From Chloroflexaceae bacterium (GTDB lineage: Bacteria; Chloroflexota; Chloroflexia; Chloroflexales; Chloroflexaceae): DNA of 49,043 nucleotides. The translations under genes were made by a program, and so were the position numbers. The notes beneath the pieces are model-generated. The model was given only the letters and a program-made list of their open reading frames with translations, was not told the DNA's origin and ran no database searches. Position 1 is the stretch's first letter. Each line of letters begins with the position of its first letter. Positions 233-49,043 of the stretch are shown here, piece by piece. Location: the NCBI GenBank assembly GCA_012031225.1, contig JAAUTZ010000016.1, positions 1 to 49,043 on the forward strand, given 5' to 3'.

Positions 233-1204
233 ATGACGATCCTGATCACTGGTGGAACCGGCTTCATCGGCAGCCATCTGGCCCGAGCGTTACTGGCAGC
301 AGGGCAGCGCGTGCGCCTGATGGGGCGCGACTTCAGCCGCGTCAGCGATGTGCTGGCGGCGGGAGCCGAAGCGGTGCAAGCCGATCTGCGTGATCCTGTG
401 CAGGTCTTTGCGGCCTGTGCTGGTGCGGATGTGGTGTATCACGTTGGTGCGCTTTCGGCTCCGTGGGGGCGGTGGCGCGATTTCCGAGCAATCAACGTGG
501 GCGGAACCCAAGCCGTGATCGGCGGCTGCATTCAGCATAATGTGCGCCGCCTGATCCATGTCTCCTCGCCGAGTGTCGTCTTTGATGGGCGCGACCAACT
601 GAACATAACTGAAGCCGCGCCCTACCCGCGCCGCCCGATCTCGGCCTACTCGGCCAGCAAGATGATCGCTGAGCAGCGCGTGCGCCAAGCTGCCGCCCAA
701 GTCGAAACGGTGATTATGCGCCCCAAAGCGGTGTTCGGGGTAGGCGACACAACCTTGCTGCCACGCTTGATTGCCGCCGCCCAAGCCCAACGCCTGCCCC
801 AGATCGGCGCTGGGCAGAACTTGATTGACCTAACCTACGTAGACAATGTGGTGCATGCCCTGCAACTAGCCCGCACCGCACCGCAAGCCGTAGGCCATAC
901 CTACCATATCACCAACAATGAGCATATCAAGGTGTGGGCGATGCTGCACGAGGTGCTAGCGCGGCGCGGCATTGCCCCGATTTCGCGCCGCGTTTCCGTG
1001 CGGGGAGCACTGGCGTATGCTACAATGTTGGAAGCACGCGCCGCCCTGACACGCCGCGAACCGCTCTTGACGCGCTACACCGTAGCGATCCTCGCTCGCT
1101 CGCAGACGTATGACATTGCCGCCGCCCAGCGTGATCTCGGCTATGCCCCACTGGTTAGTGTGCAGGAAGGGATTGAGCGCACGCTCGCAGGGCTAGCGGC
1201 ATAG
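233..1204 (+). CDS. NAD-dependent epimerase/dehydratase, extended SDR (OleD-like)
   Basis: 323 residues. Extended short-chain dehydrogenase with the N-terminal Rossmann motif GGTGFIG at 7-13, catalytic Ser near 111-112 in the segment SSPSVVFDG, and the YxxxK pair Y139/K143. It probably reduces or oxidises a beta-keto/hydroxy substrate with NAD(P)H in the cytoplasm. The SSPSVVF segment is typical of the 3-beta-hydroxysteroid dehydrogenase/OleD branch. The ATG at 233 follows AAGGAG at 219-224, a good ribosome binding site. It is the first gene of a same-strand cluster ending with a KAS III gene, so the likely substrate is the condensation product of that enzyme. The fold and cofactor are firm. 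The substrate is inferred; a nucleotide-sugar epimerase is the alternative. Confidence 0.88.
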   Translation: MTILITGGTGFIGSHLARALLAAGQRVRLMGRDFSRVSDVLAAGAEAVQADLRDPVQVFAACAGADVVYHVGALSAPWGRWRDFRAINVGGTQAVIGGCIQHNVRRLIHVSSPSVVFDGRDQLNITEAAPYPRRPISAYSASKMIAEQRVRQAAAQVETVIMRPKAVFGVGDTTLLPRLIAAAQAQRLPQIGAGQNLIDLTYVDNVVHALQLARTAPQAVGHTYHITNNEHIKVWAMLHEVLARRGIAPISRRVSVRGALAYATMLEARAALTRREPLLTRYTVAILARSQTYDIAAAQRDLGYAPLVSVQEGIERTLAGLAA

Positions 1205-1205
1205 G

Positions 1206-1267
1206 TGACAGGGGTCAACACCCGCCACGCAATACCTGCCACCCGCAACCTGATACCCAACACCTGA
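1206..1267. repeat. Degenerate heptamer array between the first two genes
   Basis: Imperfect C-rich units (CACCCGC, TACCTGC, CACCCGC, AACCTGA, TACCCAA, CACCTGA) fill nearly the whole 73-base gap between the dehydrogenase and the hydrolase genes. The family is the same as at 159-217. Confidence 0.5.
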
Positions 1268-1277
1268 GAACACCGCT

Positions 1278-2126
1278 ATGCTTGATCACTGGCTCCTGCT
1301 TGATACTGGCTTCTGCCGCGTCTCTGCCCACCACGTTATGCGCGGCGCACCGCACCAGCCGCTGGATTGCCACGCGCTGGTTGCGCTGCTGCACCACCCG
1401 CAGCACGGCTGGATTATGTGGGATAGTGGCTATGCCCCGCGTATGCTCACGGCCACGCAACGCTTGCCCTACCGCCTGTATCGCCTTGCAACACCGTTGC
1501 ACATCCGCCCAGAGCAGAGCGTGATCGCCCAATTGCCCGCGCTCGGCATTGATCCGCAGGCGATCCGCACGATCATCATCTCGCACTTTCACGCCGATCA
1601 CCTCGCCGGGTTGCACGATTTCCCCCACGCCCGCCTGATCGCCAGTGCGCCCGCCTACGCCCATGTGCAGGGGCGGCGCGGGCTAGCGGCTCTGCGGCGC
1701 GGCTTCATTCCGGCGTTGCTCCCGCCCGATTTTGCCGAGCGGGTGCGCCTGCTCCCGCCCGCCGATTTTCGGGGGCCACCACTGCCCGCGCTCGGTGCAA
1801 CGTGCGACCTCTTTGGCGATGGCGTGCTACAGGCCGTGTGGCTACCGGGCCATGCGCGGGGGCAGATCGGGCTACTTGCCCACACGCACACGGGCGCCAT
1901 CTTGCTTGCCGCAGATGGCTGCTGGACGACGGAAGCCTACCGCGAGCTGCGCCCGCCCCACCGCCTGACGCACCTGTTTGTAGATGATCCGGTGGCGGTG
2001 GGGCAGACCTTGCACGCGCTGCACCACTTTGCCCATGCCCGCCCTGCTGTGCGGATTATCCCGACCCACTGCCCGGCTATGTTCGCCTATGTGACGCGCC
2101 CAGCTGCGCCTGTGCTAGCACCGTGA
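1278..2126 (+). CDS. Metallo-beta-lactamase-fold hydrolase
   Basis: 282 residues. The hallmark metal-binding motif SHFHADH lies at 102-108 (H103, H105, D107, H108), with further ligands H192 (LPGHARG), D213 (AADG) and H264 (PTHCP), so a complete binuclear zinc site is present. The family hydrolyses thioesters, lactones, phosphodiesters and similar bonds. Sequence alone does not give the substrate, but its place between an SDR and an adenylating enzyme, upstream of a KAS III, suggests an acyl-thioester or lactone. The stop overlaps the next gene's GTG start by four bases (GTGA), indicating translational coupling. A heptamer repeat array separates it from the first gene, so an internal promoter cannot be excluded. 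Confidence 0.88.
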   Translation: MLDHWLLLDTGFCRVSAHHVMRGAPHQPLDCHALVALLHHPQHGWIMWDSGYAPRMLTATQRLPYRLYRLATPLHIRPEQSVIAQLPALGIDPQAIRTIIISHFHADHLAGLHDFPHARLIASAPAYAHVQGRRGLAALRRGFIPALLPPDFAERVRLLPPADFRGPPLPALGATCDLFGDGVLQAVWLPGHARGQIGLLAHTHTGAILLAADGCWTTEAYRELRPPHRLTHLFVDDPVAVGQTLHALHHFAHARPAVRIIPTHCPAMFAYVTRPAAPVLAP

Positions 2127-3538
2127 ATATGACCCTTGTTACGGCGTATCATTGGCTCCAAGCCCACCTACGCTGGCACACCCTGCACGGCTCACGCCTG
2201 CGCCAGTACCAGCACCAACAGGCCCAACGCATGATCGCGTGGGCGTGGCAGCACACGCCCGGCTATCGCCGCCACTGGCAGGCGGCAGGCTACGATCTGG
2301 CGCAGGCCCAGCAGGCGTGGCGGCAACTGCCAGTGATCCAGCGTGCTGACCAATTGGCCGACTTTGCGGCGTTTAATGCCTATGGCATCACCCGTTCGGC
2401 GGCGGCGGCGGTGGCACAGGCCGCCGAGCAGCCCAACCAGATCGCACAGAGCTTGCCCCACGCGATCAGTGCGGGCTTTTCATCGGGCACGGCGGGGGCG
2501 GCCCAGCGCGGGCTGTTTCTGGCAAGCCCCACCGAGCGGGCCATCTGGGCTGGGGTGATCCTCGCCCGCGCCTTGCCGCCGCTCCCCCACATGCTGCACC
2601 ACGCCCGCACTGGCTACCGCGTTGCGCTGTTCCTGCGGGCCCCCAACCAACTCTACACGGCAGCTAGCGGGGGCATGGTGCAGGTGCGCTACGCTGGCCT
2701 TGCGGCGGCGCAGCGTGAGCCAGCACAGGCACTGGCCCAATTGGTGCAATGGCAGCCCCACGCTATCGTTGCCCCGCCCAGCCTGCTGGTGCAGCTGGCC
2801 CAGCTGCCTGCTGCCACGCACCTGCACCCAGAGCGGCTGGTGAGTGTAGCGGAGGTGCTAGAGCCACACGATCACGCCCTGCTAGCGGCGCGGTGGGGCG
2901 TACCCGTGCAGCAGATCTATCAGGCGACAGAGGGGGTGTTGGCGATAACGTGCCAAGCCGGACGCTTGCACCTACAAGCCGATCTGCTCGCCTTTCAGCT
3001 TGTGCCCGTGCCCGATGCTGATCCGGCGTTGGGCTACATGCAGCCGATCATCACCGATCTGTGGCGCACCACCCAGCCGATGCTACGCTTTGCGCTCGAT
3101 GATGTTGTCCAAGTTGATCCGCGACCATGCCCGTGTAGAGCAGGCATGCCCGTGCTACAGGCGGTGATCGGGCGCGCAAGCGACCTGCTCTACCTGCCGT
3201 GCAGGGAAGGGCGCGGGCGGCGCGTTGTGCCCGTTGCCAGCGTGCGCTGGATGGTTGGGGTGGGGACACTCAGCGGGAATGATGGGCCTGAACGGGTGCC
3301 CCTTGCAGGGGTTACAGATTATCAGTTGGAGCAGGTGCAGGTGGGGCAGTGGCGCGTGCGGCTTGGTCTATCGCCGCCCACCGATGCGGCTGCGCTAGCG
3401 GCGGCGGTGCAGGCGCGGGTGCAGCAGGCGGCGGTGCAACTCGGCTGTGTGCCGCCACAGGTGCAGGTGCTGCCGGAGCTTGGGCCGCTCACGCCCGGCG
3501 TGAAACGTCGCCGGATTATCGTGCGTGCTATCGAATGA
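2123..3538 (+). CDS. Adenylate-forming enzyme, F390 synthetase/CapK (PaaK)-like
   Basis: 471 residues, related to phenylacetate-CoA ligase and coenzyme F390 synthetase. The phosphate-binding loop FSSGTAG lies at 119-125, the adenine/Glu motif YQATEG around residue 274, a YRxGD-like segment (FALDDVVQVD) later, and a C-terminal PGVKRRR with the expected conserved lysine. The family activates a carboxylate with ATP to an acyl-adenylate in the cytoplasm. It starts at GTG 2123, overlapping the previous stop; ATG 2129 is an alternative. Coupled to the MBL hydrolase and followed 15 bases later by a KAS III gene. By analogy with OleC it could activate a beta-hydroxy acid, but it belongs to a different branch of adenylating enzymes, so this is only inference. 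Confidence 0.82.
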   Translation: MNMTLVTAYHWLQAHLRWHTLHGSRLRQYQHQQAQRMIAWAWQHTPGYRRHWQAAGYDLAQAQQAWRQLPVIQRADQLADFAAFNAYGITRSAAAAVAQAAEQPNQIAQSLPHAISAGFSSGTAGAAQRGLFLASPTERAIWAGVILARALPPLPHMLHHARTGYRVALFLRAPNQLYTAASGGMVQVRYAGLAAAQREPAQALAQLVQWQPHAIVAPPSLLVQLAQLPAATHLHPERLVSVAEVLEPHDHALLAARWGVPVQQIYQATEGVLAITCQAGRLHLQADLLAFQLVPVPDADPALGYMQPIITDLWRTTQPMLRFALDDVVQVDPRPCPCRAGMPVLQAVIGRASDLLYLPCREGRGRRVVPVASVRWMVGVGTLSGNDGPERVPLAGVTDYQLEQVQVGQWRVRLGLSPPTDAAALAAAVQARVQQAAVQLGCVPPQVQVLPELGPLTPGVKRRRIIVRAIE

Positions 3539-3553
3539 AAGGACTACCATACG

Positions 3554-4558
3554 ATGACTCATCTCCCTCTCCAAATTGCTGGCATCGGGCATTATCTGCC
3601 CCAGCAGCAGATCAGCAGTAGCGACCTTGCGACACGCCTTGAACTGACCGATGATTGGATCGCCGCGAAGACTGGTGTACATACGCGCCACTACGCCAAT
3701 CTTGCCCAAGGCGAAACCACCGTCGGGATGGGGGTAGCGGCGGCTCACATGGCCCTGAACCACGCCGGCATCCGCGCCGATCAGCTTGACGTAATCGTGG
3801 CGGCGGCAACGGGCGCAGAGCAGCTCATTCCCTGCACGGCGGTACTATTGCAACATGCACTCGGCGCACCGGAAGGGCAGAGTATCTGCTTTGATGTAAA
3901 TGCAACGTGTATGAGCTTTCTGGTTGGGCTGCATCTGGTGGCGGCACAGGTTGCGGCAGGGGTGTATCAGACGGCATTGATCGTGGCAAGCGAGATTGCC
4001 TCAACCTCGCTCAACCCGCACGAGCCGGAAAGTGCGGCCCTGTTTGGCGATGCGGCGGCGGCAGTAGTGCTGCGGCGCACACCGACAGGCTCAGCTAGCG
4101 CGATCTGCCATACACGCTTTGCCACCTACAGCAGCGGTTCGGCGTATATCGTGGGCTTGGGCGGCGGTACGCGGCATCACCCGAATGATCCTGCCACTAC
4201 GCCGGAGATGAACATGTTTCACATGGAAGGTCCGCGAGCGTACTTGCAAGTCTTTCGCACCCTGCCCCCATTTCTGGATACGTTCTTTGCGGAGGCAGGC
4301 TGGCAGCGGGAGGATCTAGCGGCGGTGGTGCCGCATCAAGCCAGCCAGCACGGGCTGGATTTGCTGACCCAACGGCTTGGCTTTCGAGTCGAGCAGGTGG
4401 TGTCCAATCTCGCAACACGCGGCAATACCGTAGCGGCTTCGATCCCACTTGCCTTGAGCGAGGCCGTGCATGCTGGGCGCATCCGGCGCGGTGATCGGCT
4501 GGCTCTGATCGGGGCGGGGGCGGGGCTGACGCTCGGCGCGATGGCCTTGGTGTATTAG
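3554..4558 (+). CDS. 3-oxoacyl-ACP synthase III family (KAS III/OleA-like thiolase fold)
   Basis: 334 residues, the usual length for FabH-type enzymes. The catalytic triad is visible: C119 in FDVNATCMSF, H261 in VVPHQAS and N291 in TRGNTVAAS. The family catalyses a decarboxylative or non-decarboxylative Claisen condensation of acyl thioesters. No acyl carrier protein or other fab gene is adjacent, so a role outside housekeeping fatty acid synthesis is likely. Last gene of the four-gene cluster; the dehydrogenase upstream would reduce its beta-keto product. It is convergent with the next gene, and the two stop codons overlap by four bases (TTAG). FabH and OleA subtypes cannot be separated by eye. 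Confidence 0.88.
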   Translation: MTHLPLQIAGIGHYLPQQQISSSDLATRLELTDDWIAAKTGVHTRHYANLAQGETTVGMGVAAAHMALNHAGIRADQLDVIVAAATGAEQLIPCTAVLLQHALGAPEGQSICFDVNATCMSFLVGLHLVAAQVAAGVYQTALIVASEIASTSLNPHEPESAALFGDAAAAVVLRRTPTGSASAICHTRFATYSSGSAYIVGLGGGTRHHPNDPATTPEMNMFHMEGPRAYLQVFRTLPPFLDTFFAEAGWQREDLAAVVPHQASQHGLDLLTQRLGFRVEQVVSNLATRGNTVAASIPLALSEAVHAGRIRRGDRLALIGAGAGLTLGAMALVY

Positions 4559-5586
4559 CGTAGCACCAGCACGGCCTGCACCGGGCGGTGATCGGAGCGT
4601 TGATCCCACACCCCGATCTCGGCATGGGTGGCGTGCCAGTGCGCTGAGTAGAAGATGTAGTCGAGGCGGATCAGCCATTGCGGGATCGGCATGCCCAGCA
4701 CCGTTGGGCGCGAGCTACCGGGGATGTTCGCGCCGGGGAAGGTATGCCCCACGCCATGCCCTGCCACGAGCCACGCATCCTGCATCGCGGCACTGAGGAT
4801 GCGATGGGCATGGCTGGGGTAGCCCGTGTTGAAATCACCGAGCATCAGCAACGGTTCAGAGCGGCTGCGGGCAAAGGCCGCGAGCGCGTGCATCTGCGCC
4901 TCGCGCTGGCGCACCGATTGCTCCATCTCGGCCGGACTGAAGCGCAACGGGCCGCCATAGCCCAAGCTAGTTGAATGGGCGTGGATATTCAAGACCAACA
5001 CCTGCCGCCCGTGATAATCTAGGGTGGCGAGCTGGGGCTGCCCCACCCACCCAGAGAGCGGCAGCAGCGCAAACTCGGAGGGCGGCAGGGGCGTGAGCGG
5101 GTACCGACTGAGCAAGCCCATGCCGGCGGTATTCTCGGCGGGGGCAAGGATCTGGTAGGGGTAGCGGGTGCTGAGTTCGGCTTGGATTGCGTGCAAGCCT
5201 GCCTCACTCAGTTCTTGGATCGCAACCAGATCGGCATCGCTGGCGCGAATTGCGGCAACCATCCGCTCGACCTCTGTATTGTGGTAGAGGGCGTTGTAGG
5301 TCAGCACGGTGAGGGTGGTATCATTGGCAAGCACGGGTGCAGAGTGCGGCAGATAGAGCCGCCCAAACAGCCCCAGCCACACGGCGGCGGCCAGCCCAAA
5401 GCCGACCCACAGTGGCGGGTGGCGCGTGACAAGAGCAAGCGGGGGCAGCAACAGGGCGGGCAAGAACAGGTAGAACGCCAGCGCAGTGAGCAGAAACAGC
5501 CACCACCAGCGATCCCCATAGAGCAGGTGCAAGGCGACCCACAGCAGTAGCGCAGCGAGATAGCTATAGGCGAACAGCAGCAGCAT
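4555..5586 (-). CDS. Membrane-anchored endonuclease/exonuclease/phosphatase family protein
   Basis: 343 residues from ATG 5586. About three hydrophobic helices lie in the first 85 residues, followed by an EEP catalytic domain, probably outside the membrane. The domain has VLTYNAL (Asn), LVAIQEL (metal-binding Glu), LNIHAHS, LMLGDFNTG (GDFN), RLDYIF and the C-terminal SDHRPV (catalytic Asp-His). The family cleaves phosphodiester or phosphomonoester bonds. The reading frame stays open to 5754. An extended -10 at 5690-5698 would place the transcript start near 5683, excluding the longest start. ATG 5679 would then be nearly leaderless, and ATG 5586, just before the first membrane helix, is the other candidate. 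The substrate (nucleic acid, lipid or sugar phosphate) is unknown. Confidence 0.82.
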   Translation of the reverse strand: MLLLFAYSYLAALLLWVALHLLYGDRWWWLFLLTALAFYLFLPALLLPPLALVTRHPPLWVGFGLAAAVWLGLFGRLYLPHSAPVLANDTTLTVLTYNALYHNTEVERMVAAIRASDADLVAIQELSEAGLHAIQAELSTRYPYQILAPAENTAGMGLLSRYPLTPLPPSEFALLPLSGWVGQPQLATLDYHGRQVLVLNIHAHSTSLGYGGPLRFSPAEMEQSVRQREAQMHALAAFARSRSEPLLMLGDFNTGYPSHAHRILSAAMQDAWLVAGHGVGHTFPGANIPGSSRPTVLGMPIPQWLIRLDYIFYSAHWHATHAEIGVWDQRSDHRPVQAVLVLR

Positions 5587-5689
5587 AGATTTCCATGATA
5601 GGTGGGCTAGGTGCGGTGCGAACGGCACAGGCAAAGATCCTTTCTGATGCGATGCAGCGACGGCATCCTGTCCGAACATCCTACCTGCT

Positions 5690-5698
5690 ATTATAGCA
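5690..5698 (-). promoter_or_regulatory. Extended -10 promoter for the EEP gene
   Basis: On the minus strand TGC-TATAAT reads at 5698-5690. No good -35 was found at 16-18 bases. It lies back to back with the fprA promoter. Confidence 0.5.
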
Positions 5699-5706
5699 TG
5701 GCAAGG

Positions 5707-5735
5707 TTGACAGGCATGCCGCCTCATGCTACATT
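5707..5735 (+). promoter_or_regulatory. Sigma70-type promoter of fprA
   Basis: TTGACA at 5707-5712, a 17-base spacer, then TACATT at 5730-5735 preceded by TGC (extended -10). The predicted start near 5742 leaves a leader of about 80 bases before the fprA ATG. Confidence 0.65.
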
Positions 5736-5820
5736 GATAGCCCAACAGAGCCATACAAACCTAAACATGTGCTGAGCCAAACAGGATTGGTTCGGATAAG
5801 CAAGGAAGCGAGAAAGAGCT

Positions 5821-7569: not shown

Positions 7570-9828
7570 GTGATGCTGAACGCTTTGCAATCATCAACCA
7601 CACAATCAAACACGCCCCCACGGATAACCGTCGTGCTAAAGCCGGGGTTTCTCTTTCACGGGCGTTACTTGATTGTGCGCCAGCTTAGCAGTGGCGTATC
7701 GGGGGCAGTGTATGAGGCAGTAGACCGGCGCACACGGCAGCGCGTATCGCTCCAGCATCTGTATGAAGCTGAAGCGAATACGCCACTTGAAGCGCAGTTT
7801 ATGCAAGTCGGCACACGCCTGTTGCCGCTCGAACATCCGCACCTTGCGCGGGTCGTAGATGTGTTTGTGGCGAACGAAGGTTGCTTCCTCGTCAGCGAGC
7901 TGATCACGGGCGATGATCTGTGGACGCTGATGCAGCAACACCAGATGCGCCCCTTCCCGACGCGCGATGTCCTCGATTGGGCCGAGCAGGTGCTCCAAGC
8001 CTTGACTGCGCTGCAAACAGTAGGCAATGGCATCACGCACGGCGACATCAAGCCGCACAATCTGCGTGTCGTAGCTGGGCGCGGGGTGGTGCTGGTGGAT
8101 ATTGAACTCAACTCGATGCCCCTTGCCAGCCTGATCCAGAATGCGGTAGACCTCAATGATATTGTCTTCTATGCCCCCGAAAAGCTACACGGTCAGCCGC
8201 TTACGCCTGCGGCCGATCTGTATGCGCTAGGGGCAACGCTCTACCTGCTCCTGACGGGGAACGTGCCGCCGAGTGCGCTGCAACGTGCGCTGGCCCTCTC
8301 GCTCGGTGAGCCTGACCCGCTCGTGCCAATCCAGAAGCTCAATGCCTCAATTGCGGCCGAGACTTCGGCAGTGGTGGAGCGGGCACTGGCATACGCGCCA
8401 GCCGAACGGTTTCAGGATGCGACCCAAATGTGGCAAGCTCTCGGCGATCATCTGGAGTTGCCGGCGTTGGTGGTGGGCTGTGGCAAAGATGCCGGCTTTG
8501 CCACGATCACCGCAGCATTGGCGGCAGCTGAACCATCTCAGCGGATCGTGATCCAGCCCGGTCTCTACGCCGAGAGCCTGACGCTGGAGCAGCCCGTATC
8601 GCTGATTGGTGAGGGCTTGGCGGGGGATGTGATTATTGAGAGTAGCGATGCGGCGTGTCTCACGATCTTGAGCGATCAAGTGGATGTCCACAACCTCACA
8701 CTGGTTGCCCGTAAAGTTGCCCCATTGGAGCCGTTCTTCGCAGTGACGGTGGCGCACGGCTCAGCCCTGATTGAGCAATGCACAATCACTAGCGAATCGT
8801 TGGCGTGCCTCTCGCTGCACGGCAGCACCACAGCGGCACTGGTGCGCGACTGCACGATTCGCAATGGCGCAGCCGCCGGGATTGATATTTACGATGGCGC
8901 ACAAGGCACCATTGAGGATTGCCAGATTTTCGGCAACACCCGTGCGGGCATCGAGATTAGCAATGCCGCAAATCCGATCATTCGGCGGTGCAAGATCCAG
9001 TACGGGCTTGCCAGTGGCATCTTTGTCACCGAGAATGGGCTAGGCGTGATTGAGGATTGCGAAATCCTTGCGAATGGCGGCGCAGGTGTCGCAGTGAGCT
9101 TTGGCGGCAACCCGCTGATCCGCCACTCGACGATCAGTTCCAATAGTGGCGCGGGGGTGTTTGTCTACAAGCAAGGCACGGGTACGATTGAACACTGCAC
9201 GATTGCGGGCAACCAAGCGGCAGGGGTGGAGATCAAAGAGGGTGGCGATCCGACGGTGCGGCGGTGTGAGATCCACAGTGGTTGGTTCAGTGGCATCTAC
9301 GCCCACGCCTACGCCCTCGGACGGGTGACAGGCTGCCAGATCTATGCGAATACCGATGCAAACGTGACGATTGCCGAGCATAGTGCGATTGTGCTGCGCG
9401 AGTGCCAGATCTACGATGGCAAAGCCGAAGGGGTGTGGTTTACGCGGCGCGGGGAGGGCACCCTTGAAAGCTGCGACATCTACGCGAATACGCAGGCGAA
9501 CGTTACCTTGCACGCCGGCAGCAACCCGATTATCAAACGCTGCCAGATCCGCAATGGGCTACAGGCGGGGGTGCTGGCCGATGAGGATGCGGGCGGTTTG
9601 CTGGATGAGTGCCAGATCAGTGGCAACGGCGAGTCAGGGGTGGTGCTGCAAGAACGCTCGAATATTACCCTGATGCGCTGCCGCATTCAGCAGAACCAGC
9701 AGTATGGGGTAGTCATCGAACGCAATGCAAGCGGCGTGGTGCGCGAGTGTGCGCTGGTGCTAAATGTGCGTGGGGCGTGGCATCAAGAGGGGCGTAATAA
9801 CGTCCGCAGTATGGATAACTCGGAATAG
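7570..9828 (+). CDS. Pseudokinase-like Ser/Thr kinase domain fused to a right-handed beta-helix
   Basis: 752 residues. Residues about 33-295 form a Hanks-type kinase fold: glycine loop SSGVSGAVYEA (40-50), HGDIKPHN (157-164, D159, K161, N164), VDIE in place of DFG (D177) and APE at 202-204. The beta-3 lysine of VAxK is replaced by glutamine (VSLQ, Q62), so phosphotransfer is doubtful. From about 300 to 740 come about 17 repeats of roughly 23 residues with a C-x-I...N...G-I/V pattern, typical of right-handed parallel beta-helices (pectate-lyase/NosD/FBXO11 fold). No signal peptide or membrane segment is seen, so it is probably cytoplasmic. Start is GTG 7570 or ATG 7573, with GAAGAG upstream. 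The helix may bind polymers or proteins, with the kinase domain as an allosteric module. Function unknown. Confidence 0.85.
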   Translation: MMLNALQSSTTQSNTPPRITVVLKPGFLFHGRYLIVRQLSSGVSGAVYEAVDRRTRQRVSLQHLYEAEANTPLEAQFMQVGTRLLPLEHPHLARVVDVFVANEGCFLVSELITGDDLWTLMQQHQMRPFPTRDVLDWAEQVLQALTALQTVGNGITHGDIKPHNLRVVAGRGVVLVDIELNSMPLASLIQNAVDLNDIVFYAPEKLHGQPLTPAADLYALGATLYLLLTGNVPPSALQRALALSLGEPDPLVPIQKLNASIAAETSAVVERALAYAPAERFQDATQMWQALGDHLELPALVVGCGKDAGFATITAALAAAEPSQRIVIQPGLYAESLTLEQPVSLIGEGLAGDVIIESSDAACLTILSDQVDVHNLTLVARKVAPLEPFFAVTVAHGSALIEQCTITSESLACLSLHGSTTAALVRDCTIRNGAAAGIDIYDGAQGTIEDCQIFGNTRAGIEISNAANPIIRRCKIQYGLASGIFVTENGLGVIEDCEILANGGAGVAVSFGGNPLIRHSTISSNSGAGVFVYKQGTGTIEHCTIAGNQAAGVEIKEGGDPTVRRCEIHSGWFSGIYAHAYALGRVTGCQIYANTDANVTIAEHSAIVLRECQIYDGKAEGVWFTRRGEGTLESCDIYANTQANVTLHAGSNPIIKRCQIRNGLQAGVLADEDAGGLLDECQISGNGESGVVLQERSNITLMRCRIQQNQQYGVVIERNASGVVRECALVLNVRGAWHQEGRNNVRSMDNSE

Positions 9829-43039: not shown

Positions 43040-43200
43040 TTTCCTACCTGTCCCCTGCCACGCTCGCACCCACCTCACCCCTCACCCCTGATACCTATCA
43101 CCCGACACCTGACACCCCCCTTCGCGTTCTTCGTGCCCTTCGTGCCCTTCGTGGTCTGCGTTCCCCTGCCCCCTGACACCTAGCACCTGTCACCTGCGCC
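43040..43200. repeat. C-rich heptamer array plus CTTCGTG-type repeat
   Basis: Degenerate CACCTGA/CACCCCT units at 43040-43115 are followed by tandem CTTCGTGCC units. CTTCGTGGTCTGCGTTCC (43147-43164) is the exact reverse complement of 49005-49022. The gap 43035-43475 has no credible gene; the remaining parts are the REP-like and G-rich elements listed next and unremarkable sequence from about 43340. Confidence 0.7.
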
Positions 43201-48871: not shown

Positions 48872-49043
48872 TAGGGGGCAGGTGCTAGGTGTCAGGGGTC
48901 GGGGGTCGGGTGTCAGGTGTCAGGTGGTAGGTGTCAGGTGTCAGGTGGTAGGTTTCAGGTGTCAGGTTTCAGGTGGTAGGTTTCGGGTTTCAGGTGTGAG
49001 GTCAGGAACGCAGACCACGAAGAACACGAAGGGCACGAAGGGA
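48872..49043. repeat. G-rich heptamer array and inverted copy of the boundary repeat
   Basis: About 130 bases of degenerate AGGTGTC/AGGTTTC/AGGTGGT units begin immediately after the restriction gene stop. GGAACGCAGACCACGAAG (49005-49022) and a CACGAAGGG tandem follow. Both parts are inverted copies of the elements at 43040-43164. No gene is present. Confidence 0.75.

Follow-up and report, generated by a model that had tools for sequence, protein, structure and literature searches.

The OleABCD pathway, which leads to olefins and beta-lactones, brings together in one operon a thiolase-fold condensing enzyme, an OleD-like short-chain dehydrogenase/reductase (SDR), an adenylating enzyme and a hydrolase. 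Four genes of the same general composition lie at the beginning of a 49,043-nucleotide contig from a Chloroflexaceae bacterium (GCA_012031225.1, contig JAAUTZ010000016.1, positions 1 to 49,043; this whole stretch is called the window below). They encode an SDR, a metallo-beta-lactamase (MBL)-fold hydrolase, a PaaK-type AMP-forming ligase, and a 3-ketoacyl-acyl carrier protein (ACP) synthase III (KAS III), and an earlier note on this DNA had read them as an ole-like cassette. The resemblance stops short of the individual enzymes: the cassette KAS III lacks the Glu-Pro of OleA, the ligase is of the PaaK type, and the hydrolase has the MBL fold, whereas OleB is an alpha/beta-hydrolase. As set out below, they represent a single copy of a widespread and apparently uncharacterised cassette, probably for lipid biosynthesis. 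Its parts all come from known families, and databases list the cassette solely under generic product names.

Other described systems resemble parts of the cassette. By sequence and by tree, the closest characterised KAS III enzymes are CorB and MxnB, the alpha-pyrone ketosynthases of corallopyronin and myxopyronin, which act at the end of modular polyketide synthase (PKS) lines, whereas the cassette enzyme stands with an SDR, an MBL and a ligase. MxnB fuses two long carrier-bound chains via two tunnels (PMC5724707). Malleicyprol was also considered as a precedent for the fusion of two chains, and was set aside because it involves a condensation domain rather than a KAS III. The acyl-homoserine lactone (AHL) lactonases (AiiA/AhlX) and 4-pyridoxolactonase are like the cassette MBL in fold and in having a complete HxHxDH-H-D-H dizinc site, but identity is 17-26%, and the MBL sits in a ketosynthase operon, not with quorum sensing. 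A working analogy for the whole arrangement is the Pseudomonas quinolone signal (PQS) pathway, in which the products of KAS III enzymes (PqsD/PqsBC) are released by an MBL-fold thioesterase (PqsE), and which also has a ligase (PqsA). The cassette KAS III has no close sequence relation to those of the PQS pathway, however, and there are no anthranilate genes at the cassette.

Conservation of the four genes

When 84,980 species genomes were scanned with a ligase alignment, at least 579 relatives were recovered, and the best 80 loci were examined for partners. All four families occur together in 67 of these 80 loci; contig ends truncate many of the others. Judged by their record titles, the loci come from at least 11 phyla, although some individual labels could be in error because several of the records are metagenome-assembled genomes (MAGs). 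The titles include Chloroflexota, Armatimonadota, Gemmatimonadota, Acidobacteriota, Bacillota, Pseudomonadota, Cyanobacteriota, Chlamydiota, Bacteroidota, Verrucomicrobiota, Actinomycetota, and Campylobacterota. Frequent gene orders are KAS-ATPgrasp-SDR-MBL-ligase (27 loci), that of the window, SDR-MBL-ligase-KAS (18), and KAS-SDR-MBL-ligase (10). An overlap of exactly 4 nt between the MBL and ligase genes was found again in 17 loci.

Among 301 Chloroflexota genomes, 15 have a ligase above the cut-off of the TIGR02304 family. Where there is enough flanking DNA, the MBL and SDR adjoin it in nearly all cases and the KAS III in most; an exception is the ligase of locus L048 in genome G106, for which no partner was found (G, C and L label our genomes, contigs and loci). 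The idea that unrelated genes became neighbours here by chance can be practically dismissed, given the co-occurrence in 67 loci, the spread over phyla and the translational coupling. It is also at odds with an internal control, low-scoring ligase relatives (L025, L052-L055) that have none of the cassette partners adjoining. The operon proposed in the earlier note is thus a conserved one, and the search of its neighbourhood contradicts the possibility, raised there, that the neighbours are not kept together in other genomes.

A close relative of the window locus, 87-93% identical over the four genes, occurs in an uncultured Chloroflexales MAG (L063, on a 131-kb contig). Its four cassette proteins are 93, 93, 88 and 91% identical to those of the window, and dN/dS is 0.08-0.17 across all four genes, indicating that they are maintained by purifying selection.

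Cassettes are carried on plasmids in Pontibacillus, Paenibacillus, Ketogulonicigenium, and on one Escherichia coli plasmid; a search for ligase relatives in viral contigs found none. The cassette ligase gene is present in 672 of 5,426 complete E. coli genomes (~12%, or one in eight), and 670 of the places are chromosomal. Carriers include ATCC 25922 and Nissle 1917. In the latter (L003:3173-10054, L214), a run of seven genes, KAS-SDR-MBL-ligase-PAP2-fatty-acid hydroxylase-desaturase, is sited between narI and the tRNA-Tyr genes/purU, and we found no literature on this lipid-type operon. More generally, the open-access literature, queried with the family names, the locus context and the accessory genes, yielded no description of the cassette; subscription papers lay outside this search, so an earlier description is possible.

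The KAS III groups with CorB and MxnB

The KAS III matches Pfam ACP_syn_III, and its best match in the PDB is CorB (top matches 4yuc and 4v2p). The catalytic triad is Cys119-His261-Asn291, and the same Cys-His-Asn (CHN) triad is found in 87/87 cassette enzymes. OleA is recognised by its catalytic Glu117 followed by Pro (PMC7064751). At the corresponding position (Phe87 of E. coli FabH, EcFabH), the 87 cassette enzymes have Ile (80), Leu (6) or Val (1), the window reading Ile92-Pro93, whereas the residue is Glu in 6/6 Chloroflexales OleA, mostly Phe in FabH and Val in CorB/MxnB. EcFabH position 85 is Gln in 85 of the 87. Together with the CHN triad and the residue at position 87, this Gln makes up a pattern that CorB/MxnB share and FabH and OleA do not. 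Ile/Val87, Ser247, and Thr304 are likewise common to the cassette enzymes and CorB/MxnB, and the FabH-specific residues Phe87, Arg36, Arg151, Asn247, Arg249, and Phe304 are absent from them.

In a tree of 51 sequences, the cassette KAS III and CorB/MxnB form one group (support 100/96), with FabH (95/97) and OleA (100/100) apart. CorB and MxnB fall inside the cassette radiation, beside the KAS III of L230 (G018:C33), a Chloroflexota cassette of the order SDR-MBL-FemAB-KAS-ATPgrasp without a ligase, which is the nearest CorB/MxnB relative found here. Placing CorB/MxnB outside the cassette group was weakly rejected by the approximately unbiased (AU) test (p 0.036). The same test did not reject an arrangement with cassette KAS and OleA together, apart from FabH and CorB/MxnB (p 0.117); more than one order of divergence among FabH, OleA and the cassette group is therefore compatible with the data.

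The window enzyme is not the housekeeping FabH, as the separate grouping in the trees, the lost FabH-specific residues and the presence of the genome's own FabH elsewhere (G000:C53) all indicate. A grouping with FabH, which the earlier note had named as counting against its reading, is thereby contradicted. A search of the same genome found no OleA. A FabH-like reaction is a different matter. One acyl chain may be extended with decarboxylation of malonyl-ACP, after which the SDR would reduce the beta-ketoacyl product and the MBL would free a 3-hydroxy acid, to be coupled to a head group by the ligase or by glycosyltransferases. The CHN triad and the overall KAS III/FabH similarity (33% identity to the genome's own FabH; 230 bits with TIGR00747) favor this, as does the lack of a catalytic Glu for a non-decarboxylative Claisen reaction. 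Nevertheless, five FabH residues (Arg36, Arg151, Asn247, Arg249, Phe304) are lost while CorB/MxnB features are retained, the tree sets the cassette enzymes apart from FabH, and ordinary fatty acid synthesis already supplies 3-hydroxyacyl-ACP. We therefore regard this malonyl-dependent route as doubtful, if worth keeping in mind.

The reductase, hydrolase and ligase

The SDR belongs to Pfam 3Beta_HSD/Epimerase and carries a Rossmann TGGTGFIG motif; its catalytic Tyr139-Lys143 pair is invariant in 25 cassette SDRs. Its best NCBIfam models are those for OleD (242 and 232 bits), which supports the relationship claimed by the earlier note. These scores are below the cut-off of 580 bits, as are those of true Chloroflexales OleD (~340 bits). 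True OleD enzymes of the order cluster by themselves (support 100) beside the cassette SDRs, which qualifies the placement in an OleD branch.

The MBL matches Pfam Lactamase_B, and its best NCBIfam model is the AHL lactonase AttM (79 bits against a cut-off of 390, below equivalog level). Its dizinc site, HxHxDH (H103, H105, D107, H108) with H192, D213, and H264, is invariant in 27 sequences. The predicted structure (pLDDT 95.5) aligns with AhlX in Foldseek (TM 0.74-0.76), the fold is also that of 4-pyridoxolactonase, and the PqsE thioesterase is a distant match only. From sequence and model, the predicted enzyme is lactonase- or thioesterase-like and not a decarboxylase, and the role in place of OleB that had been proposed for it finds no support.

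These lactonase relatives, nearest in both sequence and fold, together with the position of CorB/MxnB inside the cassette radiation, are what speaks for a lactone product. By analogy to CorB/MxnB, the KAS III might couple two chains and so form an alpha-pyrone or a comparable lactone, which the MBL and SDR would then open and reduce. CorB/MxnB pathways, however, run on PKS lines, and the loci examined showed no recognisable PKS next to the cassettes. Furthermore, making a lactone and then opening it seems wasteful, and we consider this product unlikely.

The window ligase is best described by TIGR02304, "F390 synthetase-related protein" (aden_form_hyp), with 218.8 bits, under the curated cut-off of 251.9. 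Its orthologues in other Chloroflexota score 260-408 bits, and the window copy is 41-44% identical to several of them. It shares the PaaK-type fold of the family and has a 2-residue insertion in the P-loop region. Motifs are an SSGT P-loop, YQxTEG, invariant C277, C336, and C338, and a C-terminal K461. The model (pLDDT 86.7) matches PaaK-type AMP ligases including NatL2, AjiA1, and ClxA. No Pfam family matched the ligase, and no OleC model reached threshold. A ladderane comparative-genomics paper places an F390 synthetase within a different FASII (type II fatty acid synthesis) cluster.

Variant cassettes and the Ole comparison

A genome of the same family, G061, has true oleA and oleD (L178) alongside cassette genes (L215, L216), and the cassette is therefore not a variant that replaces ole. 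At L216 (G061:C110), a GT1-like glycosyltransferase comes after the MBL, in the usual place of the ligase. Next lie the KAS III and a pair of GT21-like glycosyltransferases; both glycosyltransferase types were named from their resemblance to identified neighbors of other loci. No TIGR02304 ligase was found in the G061 genome. In G018 and G303, SDR-MBL-KAS occur with a FemAB-like protein and an ATP-grasp enzyme, and the ligase is missing. Because the ligase is missing or replaced in some Chloroflexota, we take KAS-SDR-MBL to be the core, with a finishing step that varies.

Bearing in mind these observations, OleA-type head-to-head condensation leading to an olefin or beta-lactone, with the ligase in the role of OleC and the MBL in that of OleB, is very improbable. 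The best scores of the SDR against OleD models and the presence of an adenylating enzyme and a hydrolase agree with it. Weighing more heavily on the other side are the absence of the OleA Glu-Pro in 87/87 cassette KAS III, the real oleA/oleD in the G061 genome, a PaaK-type ligase that is swapped for other genes at some loci, and the lack of any family match to OleA, OleB or OleC. Membership of the Ole system was rejected because of the missing Glu-Pro, the tree and the coexistence in G061. The OleC role assigned by the earlier note likewise finds no support, in view of the ligase type, the absent OleC match and the glycosyltransferase in its place in G061.

Optional neighbors of the cassettes include ATP-grasp enzymes (34 loci), FemAB-like proteins (acyltransferase; 27 loci), GT1 and GT21 glycosyltransferases, fatty-acid hydroxylase, desaturase, PAP2, and Rieske oxygenase. 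A sulfotransferase with adenylylsulfate kinase occurs in L126, both named by eye. As predicted functions, these accessory genes point to a lipid bearing a hydroxyl and an acyl linkage.

A proposed pathway

We suggest, with a probability of roughly 40%, that the cassette condenses two acyl chains, reduces the product to a hydroxyacyl lipid, releases it by the MBL and then attaches a head group or glycosylates it. The proposal builds on the retention of four families across phyla, on purifying selection on all four genes and on the lipid-type accessory genes (fatty-acid hydroxylase and desaturase, PAP2, GT21, GT1). In the first step, the KAS III would load one acyl chain on Cys119, and its condensation with another thioester, acyl or beta-ketoacyl, would give a branched beta-keto thioester; two chains are proposed because of the residue pattern and grouping shared with CorB/MxnB, and because MxnB fuses two chains. 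The OleD-like SDR, given its nearest models and invariant Tyr/Lys, would convert the 3-keto group into a hydroxyl. With its complete dizinc site, lactonase fold and distant PqsE matches, the zinc hydrolase would cut the thioester (or open a lactone) to give a free hydroxy acid. The ligase, having the fold of PaaK-type AMP ligases, would adenylate this acid and couple it to a head group, either an amine or an alcohol. Elsewhere, glycosylation or sulfation of the hydroxyl may take the place of this step or add to it.

Several points weigh against this pathway. For every member, both substrates and product are predictions. With Ile in place of the OleA Glu, the enzyme has no established base that could deprotonate a plain acyl chain. 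A beta-ketoacyl or malonyl thioester may therefore serve as the second substrate, and the product may not be a lipid with two long chains; the second substrate is the weakest link of the mechanism. In what order the MBL, SDR and ligase act is a guess, and the absence of the ligase from some Chloroflexota cassettes means that its step is not universal. Of the products that the earlier note had considered (a hydroxy acid, lactone or hydrocarbon), a hydroxy-acid-type lipid is the most plausible, whereas the Ole roles assigned to the enzymes are not retained.

The locus in the window

The four open reading frames (ORFs) are intact where the earlier note had placed them, including its four-base overlap of the MBL stop with the ligase start (Table 1); an in-frame ATG stands two codons past the GTG.

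Table 1. Features at the beginning of the window.
Feature	Positions	Strand	Remarks
Intergenic stretch, GACACC-type repeats, contig edge	1-232	+	232 nt
SDR, 3-beta-HSD/OleD-like reductase	233-1204	+	323 aa; ATG start after AAGGAG
MBL-fold dinuclear-zinc hydrolase	1278-2126	+	282 aa
PaaK-type AMP-forming ligase, "F390 synthetase-related"	2123-3538	+	471 aa; GTG start
KAS III, CorB/MxnB-like cassette group	3554-4558	+	334 aa; start after AAAGGA

The window is an entire contig (G000:C204) of a 4.21-Mb genome in 205 contigs, and the SDR begins only 232 nt from its first base. In L063, a 781-aa protein ends ~195 nt upstream of the SDR. Named by eye, it reads as a UvrD/PcrA-like helicase, and on this basis the window cassette is complete, with no cassette gene missing upstream. 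Downstream, the operon ends at an endonuclease/exonuclease/phosphatase-family gene in opposite orientation (4555-5754), which is not a member of the cassettes seen in other genomes.

Intergenic heptamer repeats of the GACACCT/GACACCC type occur at 173-192, 43104-43116, and 48888-48970 (8 matches vs. 0.04 expected). They stand at both contig ends and probably caused the assembly break. Similar GACACC-type heptamers precede the SDR and MBL in L063 (L063:6900-7100 and 8075-8150). Elsewhere in the window, 7570-9828 encodes a 752-aa protein with, judging by its sequence, a Ser/Thr kinase-like domain at the N terminus and right-handed beta-helix-like repeats after it.

Implications

The cassette KAS III is a likely origin of the CorB/MxnB ketosynthases of RNA-polymerase-inhibiting antibiotics. 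A broader proposal, which we put forward tentatively and would not call probable, is that the cassette makes a whole unrecognised class of bacterial lipids in many phyla, with commensal E. coli, Streptococcus, and Paenibacillus among the producers. Two chains would be condensed and reduced to branched hydroxy lipids resembling mycolic acids, which would differ in being glycosylated, amidated, hydroxylated or sulfated, and CorB/MxnB would have been recruited from the cassette. Whatever its structure, the product almost certainly matters to the hosts, because the cassette has been kept in at least 11 phyla and is carried by ~12% of complete E. coli genomes.

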